Origin: Bacilli bacterium
GTDB lineage: Bacteria > Bacillota_I > Bacilli_A > RF39 > UBA660
DNA length: 64,000 bases
Reading direction: 5' to 3'
Assembly (NCBI GenBank): GCA_017435485.1
Contig: JAFSEY010000010.1
Coordinates: 1-64,000, forward strand
In this document: positions 10,857 to 31,211 of the stretch, one piece after another
Numbering within the stretch: position 1 is the first letter of the stretch
Layout: each line of letters begins with the position of its first letter
Notes under the pieces: generated by a model
The model's input: the letters and a program-made list of their open reading frames with translations, nothing else
What the model was told of the DNA's origin: nothing
Database searches by the model: none
Program-made: the position numbers and the translations under genes

Positions 10857-11189
10857 ATGCTAAACCAAAACTTTGAACTTAGAGAAACTTTATGCCAAAT
10901 TTTACTATCAGCTTTCAAAGAAAAAGATTACAGCTCTTTTATTAAAATTCTTAATGATGATCACCCTTTAATCTCTGATTATATGAAAACTTCTTTAAAA
11001 ACTCTTAATGAATTTAAAAATAACATCTTTAACAATCAATATCACAATGGGTTTATTGAAGGCAATAACAACTTTATTAAGGTTATTAAAAGAATTGCTT
11101 TTGGTTTTAGATCTTTTTGCAGATTTAAAGCGCGTATTATGATTTGTAAAGGTTTAATCAAATTAAACAAAAAAGTAGCCAATACCTAA
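10857..11189 (+). pseudogene. ISL3 family transposase, C-terminal remnant
   Basis: The 110 codons match only the C-terminal end of ISL3/IS204/IS1001 transposases: NFELRETLCQ, then HNGFIEGNNNFIKVIKRIAFGFRSF and FKARIMI. A complete transposase is about 400 residues, so roughly three quarters is missing. Open frame continues a few codons upstream of the ATG (reading SYVVNY), in line with a truncated longer gene rather than a real start. No 5' part is found upstream, where the promoter of the Nudix gene lies. The remnant marks a past insertion. Confidence 0.85.
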
Positions 11190-12817: not shown

Positions 12818-14122
12818 TTATTTTCTGTTAAGATTAATTATGTTTTTTAAACTATCTAAATTGTCGAATTCTATTTCTAAATTACTATTATTAAACATGT
12901 CTTTTATACAAAAAACACGTTTCTTAATTTCATCCTCACCAAGAATAATTACATATGGGATTTTTTCTTTATTAGCATAATCTAAACTCTTCTTTAATTT
13001 TTTGTTTTTCATTTCTATTTCAACATTGTAATCTAAGTATCTCAACATATTAGCAATTTTTAAACTTTCTATTTCAGTGCCTAGAGGAATTATATAAATA
13101 TCAGTATTGGATCTTTCATTAAACATTGTATTATCTTTTAATAATTCATAAATTGACGATAAACCAAAACTAATTCCAACTGTTGGATATTTATTACCAT
13201 CATTAATAAAATCCCCTATCATTTTATCATATCTTCCCCCAGCCCCAATACTACCATTAATTTTTCCATTTTTTTCATAAACCTCAAATACATTTCCAGT
13301 ATAATAATTTTGTCCTCTGGCTAATGATGATGAAAATATACATATTGAATCTATATTTATACTTTTTAACATTTTGCTTAAGTTGTTCAATTCTTGCAAA
13401 CCTAGTTTTATTTTTTCATTTGAGGTATCTTGAAACAATTCAATAAGACTATCAAGAGATAAATCAAAATATTTAGTAATATTGTTAACCTGGTTATTAG
13501 ACAAACCTATTTCAAATAATTTTTCTTTAAATTCTATATCTGTTAATTTATCCTTCTTATCAATTATAGTAGTTACATTTTGAACTAAAGAACTATCAAT
13601 ACCACTTTCTAAAATCAATCCAGTCATTAAATTTCTACTATTATATTTAATAATAATTTCAATATTTAATTCGTTAAATGCTTTTACAAATAATGACATT
13701 AATTCTGCTTCTATTAATTGTCCATCTAAACCTACAACATCTGCATCACATTGTGTAAACTCTCTATCTCTGCCAACTCTAACTGGTCCATCTCTAAAAG
13801 CTTTTGCTATTTCATATCTTTTAAATGGAAGCTTAATTTGATTTTTGTTAAGTGCTATAAATTTAGCGAATGGTACAGTCAAATCATATCTTAATCCTAG
13901 TTTTCTTTCTCCTTGATCTCTTAATTTATATATTTCTTTTAATATATCATTCTCTTCATCATATTTATCACTTAAAATATCATAATAGCACAATATAGGT
14001 GTTTCAATTGGCTGAAATCCATATTTTTCAAAAGTTTTTCTTAAAGTATTGTTTATATAATTTCTGATTTTTTGTTCTTTAGGTAAAAAATCATAACCAC
14101 CTTTTACATTTTGTATTTTCAT
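12818..14122 (-). CDS. hisS: Histidyl-tRNA synthetase
   Basis: A 434-residue class II synthetase that charges tRNA-His. The N-terminal VKGGYDFLPKEQKIR, class II motif 2 (FRDGPVRVGRDREFTQCD), the histidine-binding loop GAGGRYDKMIGDF and motif 3 region (YPTVGISFGLSSIYELL) are all present in order, with the usual C-terminal anticodon-binding domain (TDIYIIPLG onward). The usual partner aspS is not downstream. Expression is very probably controlled by the histidine leader-peptide attenuator at 14154-14337. Confidence 0.97.
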   Translation of the reverse strand: MKIQNVKGGYDFLPKEQKIRNYINNTLRKTFEKYGFQPIETPILCYYDILSDKYDEENDILKEIYKLRDQGERKLGLRYDLTVPFAKFIALNKNQIKLPFKRYEIAKAFRDGPVRVGRDREFTQCDADVVGLDGQLIEAELMSLFVKAFNELNIEIIIKYNSRNLMTGLILESGIDSSLVQNVTTIIDKKDKLTDIEFKEKLFEIGLSNNQVNNITKYFDLSLDSLIELFQDTSNEKIKLGLQELNNLSKMLKSINIDSICIFSSSLARGQNYYTGNVFEVYEKNGKINGSIGAGGRYDKMIGDFINDGNKYPTVGISFGLSSIYELLKDNTMFNERSNTDIYIIPLGTEIESLKIANMLRYLDYNVEIEMKNKKLKKSLDYANKEKIPYVIILGEDEIKKRVFCIKDMFNNSNLEIEFDNLDSLKNIINLNRK

Positions 14123-14153
14123 AATAATCCTCTTTTCTATATTTTATTCAATT

Positions 14154-14187
14154 AAAAAATGCTATACAGATAGTACCTGTATAGCAT
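14154..14187 (-). terminator. Attenuator terminator in the hisS leader
   Basis: An 11-bp perfect stem (ATGCTATACAG / CTGTATAGCAT) with a seven-base loop, then six T on the minus strand, 32 bases before the hisS start codon. Its 5' arm can instead pair with an upstream segment at 14204-14215 (see the regulatory entry), which would prevent termination. Confidence 0.9.
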
Positions 14188-14337
14188 AATAGTTTATTTA
14201 TACGCTAGATACAAGCACTACAAATAGCACTTGTACCTACAACAAATTTTAATGTCGTATTAACAAGTGCAGACTATTATGATGATGATTAAATTTTATT
14301 ATTTGATTTAACATAATAATCTCTCCCTTTCAAAATT
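14188..14337 (-). promoter_or_regulatory. Histidine leader-peptide attenuator of hisS
   Basis: Mutually exclusive helices are visible in the leader. A (14263-14270, GCACTTGT, inside the leader peptide reading frame) pairs with B (14227-14234, ACAAGTGC). B extended (14225-14235) pairs with C (14210-14220) as an 11-bp hairpin with a four-base loop. C (14204-14215) also pairs over ten positions, with a two-base bulge, with D (14176-14185), the 5' arm of the terminator. A ribosome stalled at the run of three His codons would leave A free: A-B, then C-D, and read-through. A ribosome reaching the leader stop would cover A: B-C forms and the terminator follows. This is inferred from sequence pairing only. 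Confidence 0.8.
14249..14314 (-). CDS. hisL: Histidine-rich leader peptide of hisS
   Basis: A 21-codon reading frame starting MLNQIIKFN and followed at once by three His, then ending NSLHLLIRH, so five of 21 residues are His. AAAGGGAGAG lies eight to nine bases before the ATG, a better ribosome site than that of many genes here. It lies between the hisS promoter and a perfect terminator. The high His content in this place, upstream of the histidyl-tRNA synthetase, indicates a regulatory peptide whose translation senses charged tRNA-His. Confidence 0.85.
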   Translation of the reverse strand: MLNQIIKFNHHHNSLHLLIRH

Positions 14338-14343
14338 GATATT

Positions 14344-14372
14344 AGTTTACCACTTTTTATGATATTTGTCAA
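14344..14372 (-). promoter_or_regulatory. Promoter of hisS and its leader
   Basis: TTGACA (14367-14372) and TAAACT (14344-14349) with a 17-base spacer on the minus strand; transcription should start near 14337, about 20 bases before the leader peptide ATG. Confidence 0.85.
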
Positions 14373-29200: not shown

Positions 29201-30490
29201 TTATTTTTTATTTGGATAAATAACTTCTAAACCACCCATATATGGTTGTAATGCTTTAGGGATATTAACACTTCCATCAGCCTTAACGTTATTTTCTAAA
29301 ACAGCTATCATACCTCTTGGAGAAGCAATTACGGTATTATTAAGCGTTGATAAATAGTAATTGCCATTTTCACCTTTTGCTTTGATTCCTAAACGTCTTG
29401 CTTGAGCATCCCCCAATGTAGAACAGGAACCAACTTCAAAGTATTTTTTCTGTCTTGGACTCCAAGCTTCGACATCACAAGATTTAACTTTTAAATCAGC
29501 TAAATCTCCACTACAACATTCTAGAGTACGTACTGGCACATCTAAACTACGGAAAAATTCCACAGTATACTTCCACATCTTATTATACCAATCCATTGCT
29601 TGTTCTGGCTTACATAAAACAACCATTTCTTGCTTTTCAAATTGGTGAACACGATATAATCCTCTTTCTTCTAAGCCATGAGCTCCTACTTCTTTTCTAA
29701 AGCATGGTGAATATGATGTTAAGGCGATAGGAAGTTCTGCTTCTTTAACAATTTGACCTTTAAATTTACCAATCATAGAATGTTCAGAAGTACCAATTAA
29801 ATATAAATCTTCACCCTCTATTTTATACATCATTGCGTCCATCTCTGCAAATGACATAACCCCTGTAACTACATCACTACGAATCATAAATGGAGGTACA
29901 CAATAAATAAAGCCTTTGTCGATCATAAAATCTCTAGCATAAGAAATCATCGCTGAATGAAGTCTTGCTATATCTCCCATTAAATAATAAAAACCATTAC
30001 CACTGGTTCTTCCAGCACTTTCTTTATCTAAACCTGATAAAGCATCACATATATCAGCATGATATGGTATTTCATAATCAGGAACAACTGGTTCACCAAA
30101 TCTTTCAATTTCTACATTTTCACTGTCATCTTTACCAACTGGTACAGAATCATCAATAATGTTAGGAATTTGATACATTAATTCTTTCAATCTAGTAGCA
30201 AGCAGTTCTTCCTTTTCTTCAATTTCAACCAACTCATTATTGATTTGCATAACTTCAGCCTTTTTACTTTCTGCTTCTTCTTTGTGACCATTTTTAAAAC
30301 ATATTCCAATCTCATTACTTATTTGGTTTCTTTTATTTCTTAGTTCATCGCCTTTTAATTGATTTTCTCTTCTTTCTTGATCCACTTCCAAAATAGTGTC
30401 TAACATTGGAATTTTTTCTTCTTGAAACTTCTTTTGTAAATTTTTAATAACTTTGTCTTTTTCTTCTCTAATTAATTTAATATCTATCAT
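29201..30490 (-). CDS. serS: Seryl-tRNA synthetase
   Basis: A 429-residue class II synthetase. A long N-terminal coiled coil (residues 30-105) that grips the tRNA-Ser extra arm precedes the catalytic core: TSEHSMIGKF (serine site), CFRKEVGAHGLEERGLYRVH (motif 2), and NNTVIASPRGMIAVLEN (motif 3). The ATG overlaps the stop of the upstream HD gene by four bases, so both are translated from one message controlled by the T-box at 31003-31205. Confidence 0.97.
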   Translation of the reverse strand: MIDIKLIREEKDKVIKNLQKKFQEEKIPMLDTILEVDQERRENQLKGDELRNKRNQISNEIGICFKNGHKEEAESKKAEVMQINNELVEIEEKEELLATRLKELMYQIPNIIDDSVPVGKDDSENVEIERFGEPVVPDYEIPYHADICDALSGLDKESAGRTSGNGFYYLMGDIARLHSAMISYARDFMIDKGFIYCVPPFMIRSDVVTGVMSFAEMDAMMYKIEGEDLYLIGTSEHSMIGKFKGQIVKEAELPIALTSYSPCFRKEVGAHGLEERGLYRVHQFEKQEMVVLCKPEQAMDWYNKMWKYTVEFFRSLDVPVRTLECCSGDLADLKVKSCDVEAWSPRQKKYFEVGSCSTLGDAQARRLGIKAKGENGNYYLSTLNNTVIASPRGMIAVLENNVKADGSVNIPKALQPYMGGLEVIYPNKK

Positions 30491-31002: not shown

Positions 31003-31205
31003 ATAAAAAAGACACCACTCTTTGCTAGGAGCAAAAAATGCGGTGCCATCCTTACTTTAACTTAATTTTTAGCTAACGGTTTTACCCGGGATATATTAAA
31101 TCCATTTGAAAAGTAGATTCATTAAGCTAAATTTATTAGTTTCCACCAACCACTAATTCTCTAAAAAATTGATTCTTAATTACTAGTCTTTTCGCATCAC
31201 TTTAC
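31003..31205 (-). promoter_or_regulatory. T-box riboswitch, serine specifier
   Basis: The hallmark AAGGATGGCACCGC is at 31040-31053 on the minus strand, followed by the terminator stem (GGCACC...GGTGTC) and a T run at 31003-31010. In Stem I, the specifier loop reads GAATCTAC with UCU (Ser) at 31115-31117. The UGGC in the T-box bulge would pair with GCCA, matching the discriminator G of tRNA-Ser. The AGAGAATTAGTGGTTGG region further upstream fits the Stem I distal elements. It senses uncharged tRNA-Ser and would open transcription of the HD gene and serS. Confidence 0.9.
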
Positions 31206-31211
31206 TTTTTT

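Follow-up and report, generated by a model that had tools for sequence, protein, structure and literature searches.

We analyzed a window of 64,000 nt (the whole stretch of DNA, positions 1–64,000 of contig JAFSEY010000010.1) from a low-GC Bacilli bacterium whose 1.09-Mb genome is 94% complete. On its minus strand lies hisS*, a gene for a histidyl-tRNA synthetase with synthetase and anticodon-binding domains. Its product scored 343 bits against TIGR00442, over the cut-off, and 483 bits against NF009085 (PRK12420), below the cut-off of 540 but still the closest family. The genome's other hisS is canonical, shares 27% identity with hisS*, and has a T-box upstream with CAC in a specifier-like position (specifier assigned by eye). 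No hisD was found in this 94% complete assembly, so the cell is probably unable to make histidine. A leader region precedes hisS*, and all of the attenuator elements that we read in its sequence are on the minus strand:

14344–14372, minus strand: promoter TTGACA-17-TAAACT, with TG ahead of the −10 (extended −10); 10/12 to consensus
14321–14330, minus strand: Shine-Dalgarno sequence of the leader ORF, AAAGGGAGAG; conserved in alignment A1
14249–14314, minus strand: leader ORF MLNQIIKFNHHHNSLHLLIRH, 21 codons plus stop; homologous leaders in relatives
14279–14287, minus strand: putative sensing run CAT CAT CAT (His10–12); its final codon ends 8 nt before segment A
14263–14270, minus strand: segment A, GCACUUGU; partner B
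14253–14259, minus strand: 5′ arm of the inner stem of the A-B hairpin; overlaps the end of the leader ORF
14238–14244, minus strand: 3′ arm of the inner stem of the A-B hairpin
14227–14237, minus strand: segment B, GGUACAAGUGC; partners A (8 bp) or C (11 bp)
14208–14218, minus strand: segment C, GUGCUUGUAUC; partners B or D
14173–14187, minus strand: segment D (14182–14173) and terminator 5′ arm (14187–14175); partners C (antiterminator) or the terminator 3′ arm
14159–14171, minus strand: terminator 3′ arm, giving a 13-bp stem with one G-U pair; covariation
14154–14159, minus strand: U-tract of the intrinsic terminator; ends 32 bases before hisS*
12818–14122, minus strand: hisS*, second histidyl-tRNA synthetase, PRK12420-like, 434 aa, the putatively regulated gene

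The leader region of hisS*

An earlier note, made from sequence alone, had described a His leader peptide, segments A–D, and a terminator before hisS, and this observation is confirmed. Its 21-codon frame, strong ribosome site, and three His codons in a row held; of the five His codons that it counted, only the HHH run is conserved. Segment A held as given there, and the other segments needed shifts of ∼2–4 nt. The terminator, which it called a perfect 11-bp stem, has 13 bp including the G-U pair, or 11 bp if stopped short of that pair, and the 32-base distance to hisS is correct when counted from the end of the U-tract. The gene itself must be qualified, as it is the second, PRK12420-like hisS and not the housekeeping copy with the T-box. 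A claimed consensus promoter is present but is not above chance alone (nine promoter-like sites observed vs. 6.8 ± 2.4 in shuffles); several relatives have a similar promoter at the equivalent place, read by eye. Terminator-like sites numbered two, with 0.1 expected, and the folding of the leader region had a z-score of −5.8, with none of 200 shuffles as stable.

In low-GC Gram-positives, the control of synthetase genes by tRNA charging is usually ascribed to T-boxes. A first rival explanation places hisS* under a divergent T-box or some other RNA with direct binding of uncharged tRNA. In its favor, T-boxes are frequent on aminoacyl-tRNA synthetase genes of these bacteria, and the canonical hisS here has one. 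Against it, the hisS* leader had no T-box match in an Rfam search extended to E = 10 and no T-box core pattern, and what is conserved instead is a leader ORF with in-register codon runs. The two kinds of leader are alike in that T-boxes (RF00230) also sense tRNA charging by transcription antitermination; they differ in that the hisS* leader has no T-box elements. We regard this explanation as nearly ruled out.

Elsewhere in the window, the T-box that the earlier note had placed before serS lies at 31024–31206 on the minus strand (82.9 bits, below the cut-off of 93) and precedes a 166-aa ORF and serS (29201–30490; the name serS comes from reading the sequence). On the plus strand, a 110-aa ORF at 10857–11189 resembles, by eye, the C-terminal part of an ISL3-type transposase and is probably a remnant.

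Conservation and covariation in relatives

We fetched ∼30 loci with a close hisS* for comparison. The relatives that have names are metagenome assemblies labeled Bacilli, Erysipelotrichaceae, and Tenericutes, among others, and belong to a family that we take to be RF39-like. At most of these loci, the element was directly 5′ of hisS* or headed an operon ending in hisS*. Among the genomes checked, 22 had the element at hisS*, 14 of them with a canonical hisS as well and eight without. Another 12 sampled genomes had a more distant hisS* as their sole hisS, and at these loci we detected neither the element nor a T-box; T-boxes were present at 11 out of 15 canonical hisS loci. These counts are limited by incomplete assemblies, and the covariance model may miss divergent elements. 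At one locus (L181), the hisS* frame runs, by eye, into transposase-like sequence, and the element is without the region between B and the terminator; it looks as if gene and switch could be decaying together, a possibility that rests on reading by eye.

Of the leader His codons, the HHH run (14287–14279) is the only part conserved as such, and it is kept with CAT/CAC variation (157 CAT and nine CAC over all elements). The CAC at codon 16 sits inside segment A and is lost in relatives where a different frame runs through A (HHHNNRTC), and the last CAT of the leader is CTT in L051 and L089. Past HHH, the frame differs across A (LHLLIRH, RTC, or CTC): CTGCACTTG is read LHL in most relatives and CGCACTTGT is read RTC in others, with the RNA segment GCACTTG unchanged. 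The retention of segment A while the frame changes implies that selection acts on the RNA and the His codons and not on the peptide tail. The last sensing codon, whether His, Arg, or W-R/H-H, ends 7–9 nt before A in 68 out of 76 measurable leaders (six further leaders with a run were not measurable), and in the leaders measured, the end of the stop codon falls anywhere from the start of A to 28 nt beyond it.

These patterns bear on a second rival, in which the product of the leader ORF is a small protein with a function of its own and the terminator behind it is an ordinary one. The conservation of the ORF and its strong ribosome site speak for it. On the other hand, the C-terminal part is in different frames among relatives with the RNA kept (HHHNSLHLLIRH, HHHNNRTC), the N-terminal part shows free variation, and C is an alternative partner of the terminator arm. 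Little room is left for this explanation.

All four helices were kept, with compensatory changes in each, first in 22 relatives and then in 54 elements. The B-C and terminator helices had two-sided changes in 10 out of 22 pairs with 22 sequences and in 16 out of 22 pairs with 54 elements (0/500 shuffles in both cases). The corresponding numbers for A-B and C-D were five and eight out of 18 pairs (1/500 shuffles in both cases), a weaker signal that we attribute to these helices varying little. The shuffle control leaves relatedness in place; in a slide control, which keeps relatedness, every slid structure scored much worse than the real helices. Antisense matches of the covariance model, which arise because the element is nearly self-complementary, were excluded from alignment A4. 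Some changes spanned alternative partners: In L054/L056, one position of A, B, and C changes in step, and in L053/L059, one position of B, C, D, and the terminator 3′ arm does so.

A third rival is a histidine-binding metabolite riboswitch to which the short ORF is incidental. It is supported by the strong conservation of the RNA and by a weak match to the trpB motif (Rfam RF04312), a proposed riboswitch candidate. The match, at window positions 14150–14239 on the minus strand, covers B-C and the terminator and reached 33.4 bits against a cut-off of 59, so that membership is not met. Against the riboswitch, conservation falls on the pairing segments and the codon run, the codons keep a nearly constant register, and Arg, Cys, and W-R/H-H codons occur on the same scaffold before different genes, which a single ligand pocket does not explain. 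We therefore consider a riboswitch highly improbable. The authors of the trpB motif left the choice between riboswitch and attenuator undecided (PMC11109978), and it is conceivable that the motif is an attenuator of the leader-peptide type, with a leader ORF that the model does not reach. As a separate observation, its layout of B-C hairpin and terminator is the same as that of the window element. A match to ncr1575 fell below the cut-off and was not taken as membership.

Folding and the proposed switch

We folded the window element with parts of the RNA masked. When A was left free and the RNA stopped short of the terminator 3′ arm, A-B reached 1.00 and C-D 0.93. When A was masked, B-C reached 0.84 without the 3′ arm and 0.98 with it, and the terminator reached 0.96. 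The energies were −19.4 kcal/mol for A-B, −14.1 for B-C, −15.6 for C-D (the antiterminator), and −15.3 for the terminator, leaving antiterminator and terminator balanced. The same comparison over 54 elements favored A-B in 96% with A free, and B-C in 87% and the terminator in 85% with A masked in the full RNA. The counted C-D register was favored in only 57% and thus not in ∼43%; elements of the GCC type appear to pair C with D in a shifted register, which the count leaves out. The minimum-energy fold of the full leader holds A-B and the terminator together, and antitermination must therefore be kinetic.

This constrained folding reproduces, and so supports, the scheme of the earlier note, in which A pairs with B, B with C, and C with D, with a ribosome stalled at the His run leaving A free and one at the leader stop covering it. 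That note had also named what would refute it: unconserved His codons or stems without compensatory changes in related genomes, or a T-box Stem I at this place. None of these was found: the relatives keep the His run at constant spacing, compensatory changes affect each of the four helices, and the T-box searches described above were negative.

A ribosome's footprint extends ∼10 nt ahead of its A-site codon. Our model predicts that A would stay free ahead of a ribosome reading the run's first codons, and that a ribosome at the stop codon would cover or unwind it. In the proposed mechanism, the leader peptide would be translated behind the polymerase. When charged tRNA-His is scarce, the ribosome would wait on HHH with its front edge just short of A; the unoccupied A would pair with B, C would pair with D as the antiterminator, and the polymerase would read into hisS*. 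When charged tRNA-His is plentiful, the ribosome would reach the leader stop and cover or unwind A, so that B-C would form, D would pair with the terminator 3′ arm, and transcription would stop.

The leader, its codon register, the four mutually exclusive helices, the terminator, and the linked genes are shown by sequence and comparison. Those defining features of a leader-peptide attenuator that can be read from sequence are present: a translatable leader ORF with a cognate codon run; an intrinsic terminator before the first structural gene; mutually exclusive helices with compensatory changes (A-B and C-D weaker than B-C and the terminator); and a controlled gene that matches the sensed amino acid (hisS*, and in other elements cysS with Cys and trpS with W-R-H). 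We conclude that the element is very likely (probability ∼0.9) a ribosome-mediated transcription attenuator that senses the charging of tRNA-His and controls hisS*. There is no experiment behind this reading, and stalling, ribosome–polymerase coupling, and the response to histidine are inferred.

A fourth rival holds that the leader acts mainly on the translation of hisS* and not on its transcription. Gram-positive leader peptides often act on translation, which speaks for it. Against it stands a terminator with a U-tract ∼32 bases before the start codon that does not include the hisS* ribosome site, and we think such control most improbable. The main doubt about a transcription attenuator in bacteria of this sort comes from Bacillus subtilis, where polymerases outpace ribosomes in runaway transcription (PMC13323073); ribosome-mediated attenuation is thought to require a coupling that this species largely lacks. 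Should the attenuator reading be right, a single 1.1-Mb genome reads the charging of one tRNA in two ways, with a T-box before one hisS gene and an attenuator before the other.

The enterobacterial his and trp attenuators (his = RF00514) likewise combine a leader peptide with a cognate codon run, alternative helices, and an intrinsic terminator; RF00514 itself gave no match at the leader region in the Rfam search to E = 10. The enterobacterial attenuators differ in parity, and an untranslated leader terminates there. Here, in contrast, a stalled ribosome would leave the first segment free and a finishing ribosome would cover it, and from this order of segments an untranslated leader is predicted to read through.

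One scaffold with different codon runs

Further elements were found with two covariance models, R1 and R2. Within the family, 57 out of 386 sampled genomes had the element. In a class-wide sample of 395 genomes, only two had it outside the family (L242 and L243), both with HHH leaders before hisZ-hisG (hisZ and hisG were confirmed in L242); so few extra-family matches argue for the specificity of the covariance model. The weakest matches (E of 1e-5 to 3e-3) need individual caution. The 91 distinct elements comprised 60 with His runs, 13 with Arg, nine with W-R/H-H, and two with Cys. Four more stand before ABC-F genes and have no single-residue run; the last three are of other types, two of them located before ABC-F genes and one before an M20 gene.

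Genes after His leaders were hisS*, alone or in operons, hisG, hisZ-hisG, GNAT and M20 genes, and operons with SLOG/TIGR00725 proteins or S66 carboxypeptidases. Arg leaders were followed by M20 ArgE/DapE-like genes, Cys leaders by cysS, and W-R/H-H leaders by trpS once and otherwise by M20 genes. Codon and gene match clearly for His with hisS*, hisG, and hisZ, for Cys with cysS, and for a W-R-H leader with trpS, and the Cys and trpS cases were absent from the R2 training set. The Arg runs mix CGT, CGC, and AGA codons, which implies that the amino acid is kept and not the nucleotides. The scaffold is not tied to histidine: In related gut bacteria of the family, homologous RNAs have Arg, Cys, or W-R/H-H codons in a comparable register before other genes. 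Being a family with exchanged sensing codons, it makes for a larger finding than the earlier note described.

His attenuators before hisS paralogs are a known kind by prediction. Naville and Gautheret (2010) predicted His leader-peptide attenuators before hisS* and hisZ in bacilli (PMC2965389), which makes the contrast with proteobacteria weaker than first stated. Those systems, predicted by comparison, also have a short His-run ORF and a terminator before a hisS paralog, with a T-box on the main hisS. Here, by contrast, four helices were tested by covariation, the hosts are uncultured small-genome Bacilli, and the scaffold is common to Arg, Cys, W-R/H-H, and ABC-F leaders; homology of the RNAs or genes between the two sets is not established. 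PRK12420-like genes of Paenibacillus (L076–L078) have HHHKKR leaders. Candidate his-operon RNA attenuators in the Bacillus cereus group, Peptostreptococcaceae, and Erysipelotrichales (Ashniev 2022; PMC9413887) share with our element a His-rich leader, a terminator, and an antiterminator, located 5′ of his biosynthesis genes in Firmicutes, and L242 and L243 look to be of that kind. They differ in that the study covers his biosynthesis and transport genes, with "hisS" absent from its text, and our source genome is without hisD. What is new, within the open-access literature to which our search was limited, is the common scaffold with exchanged codons and the logic in which a stall leaves A free.

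A bolder, joint reading seems to us likely, again without experiment: One scaffold was copied within a family of uncultured Bacilli and was re-targeted by codon exchange (His, Arg, Cys, W-R/H-H) or given a possibly drug-responsive ABC-F leader, with a logic unlike that of the enterobacterial his and trp attenuators and with read-through as the default when untranslated. If true, these low-GC Gram-positives would have useful ribosome–polymerase coupling. With different codons placed at almost the same distance from A, the relatives offer a natural codon-swap experiment, and the mechanism is testable with few constructs. Moreover, in uncultured bacteria, the leader alone may tell what signal controls a gene that has no other annotation.

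Several groups of elements merit separate description. The 13 leaders with RRR or RRRR nearly all precede M20 ArgE/DapE-like peptidase genes, which suggests that these M20 enzymes serve arginine supply. Nine leaders have Trp-Arg-His or Trp-His-His followed by (I/M)GNTYT; standing before M20 genes and once before trpS, they may, tentatively, sense several amino acids together. The scaffold also occurs at six loci before ABC-F genes (ribosomal protection-like; checked in L186), with leaders such as MKNYVGKKIMYTTDITLAS that are without a single-residue run. Control of ABC-F genes by leaders or attenuators is already known (PMC10314930, PMC9226507), and sensing of drug-stalled ribosomes is one possibility for these leaders.

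A 14-base core of segment C had 86 matches in viral contigs; the pattern is short, and we did not use it as evidence. A DapF-like protein was found at three loci under His or W-H-H leaders, and the one at L171 was closest to histidine racemases, at 75.7 bits far below the cut-off of 400. Nine His-leader operons encode an unknown protein and a SLOG/TIGR00725 protein, sometimes followed by hisS*; the unknown protein had no Pfam match (L211) and, by eye, has a DDVxFSG motif that is phosphoribosyltransferase-like. Four other His-leader operons encode a 494-aa protein without a family match together with an S66 carboxypeptidase, and in one of them (L165) hisS* comes next.
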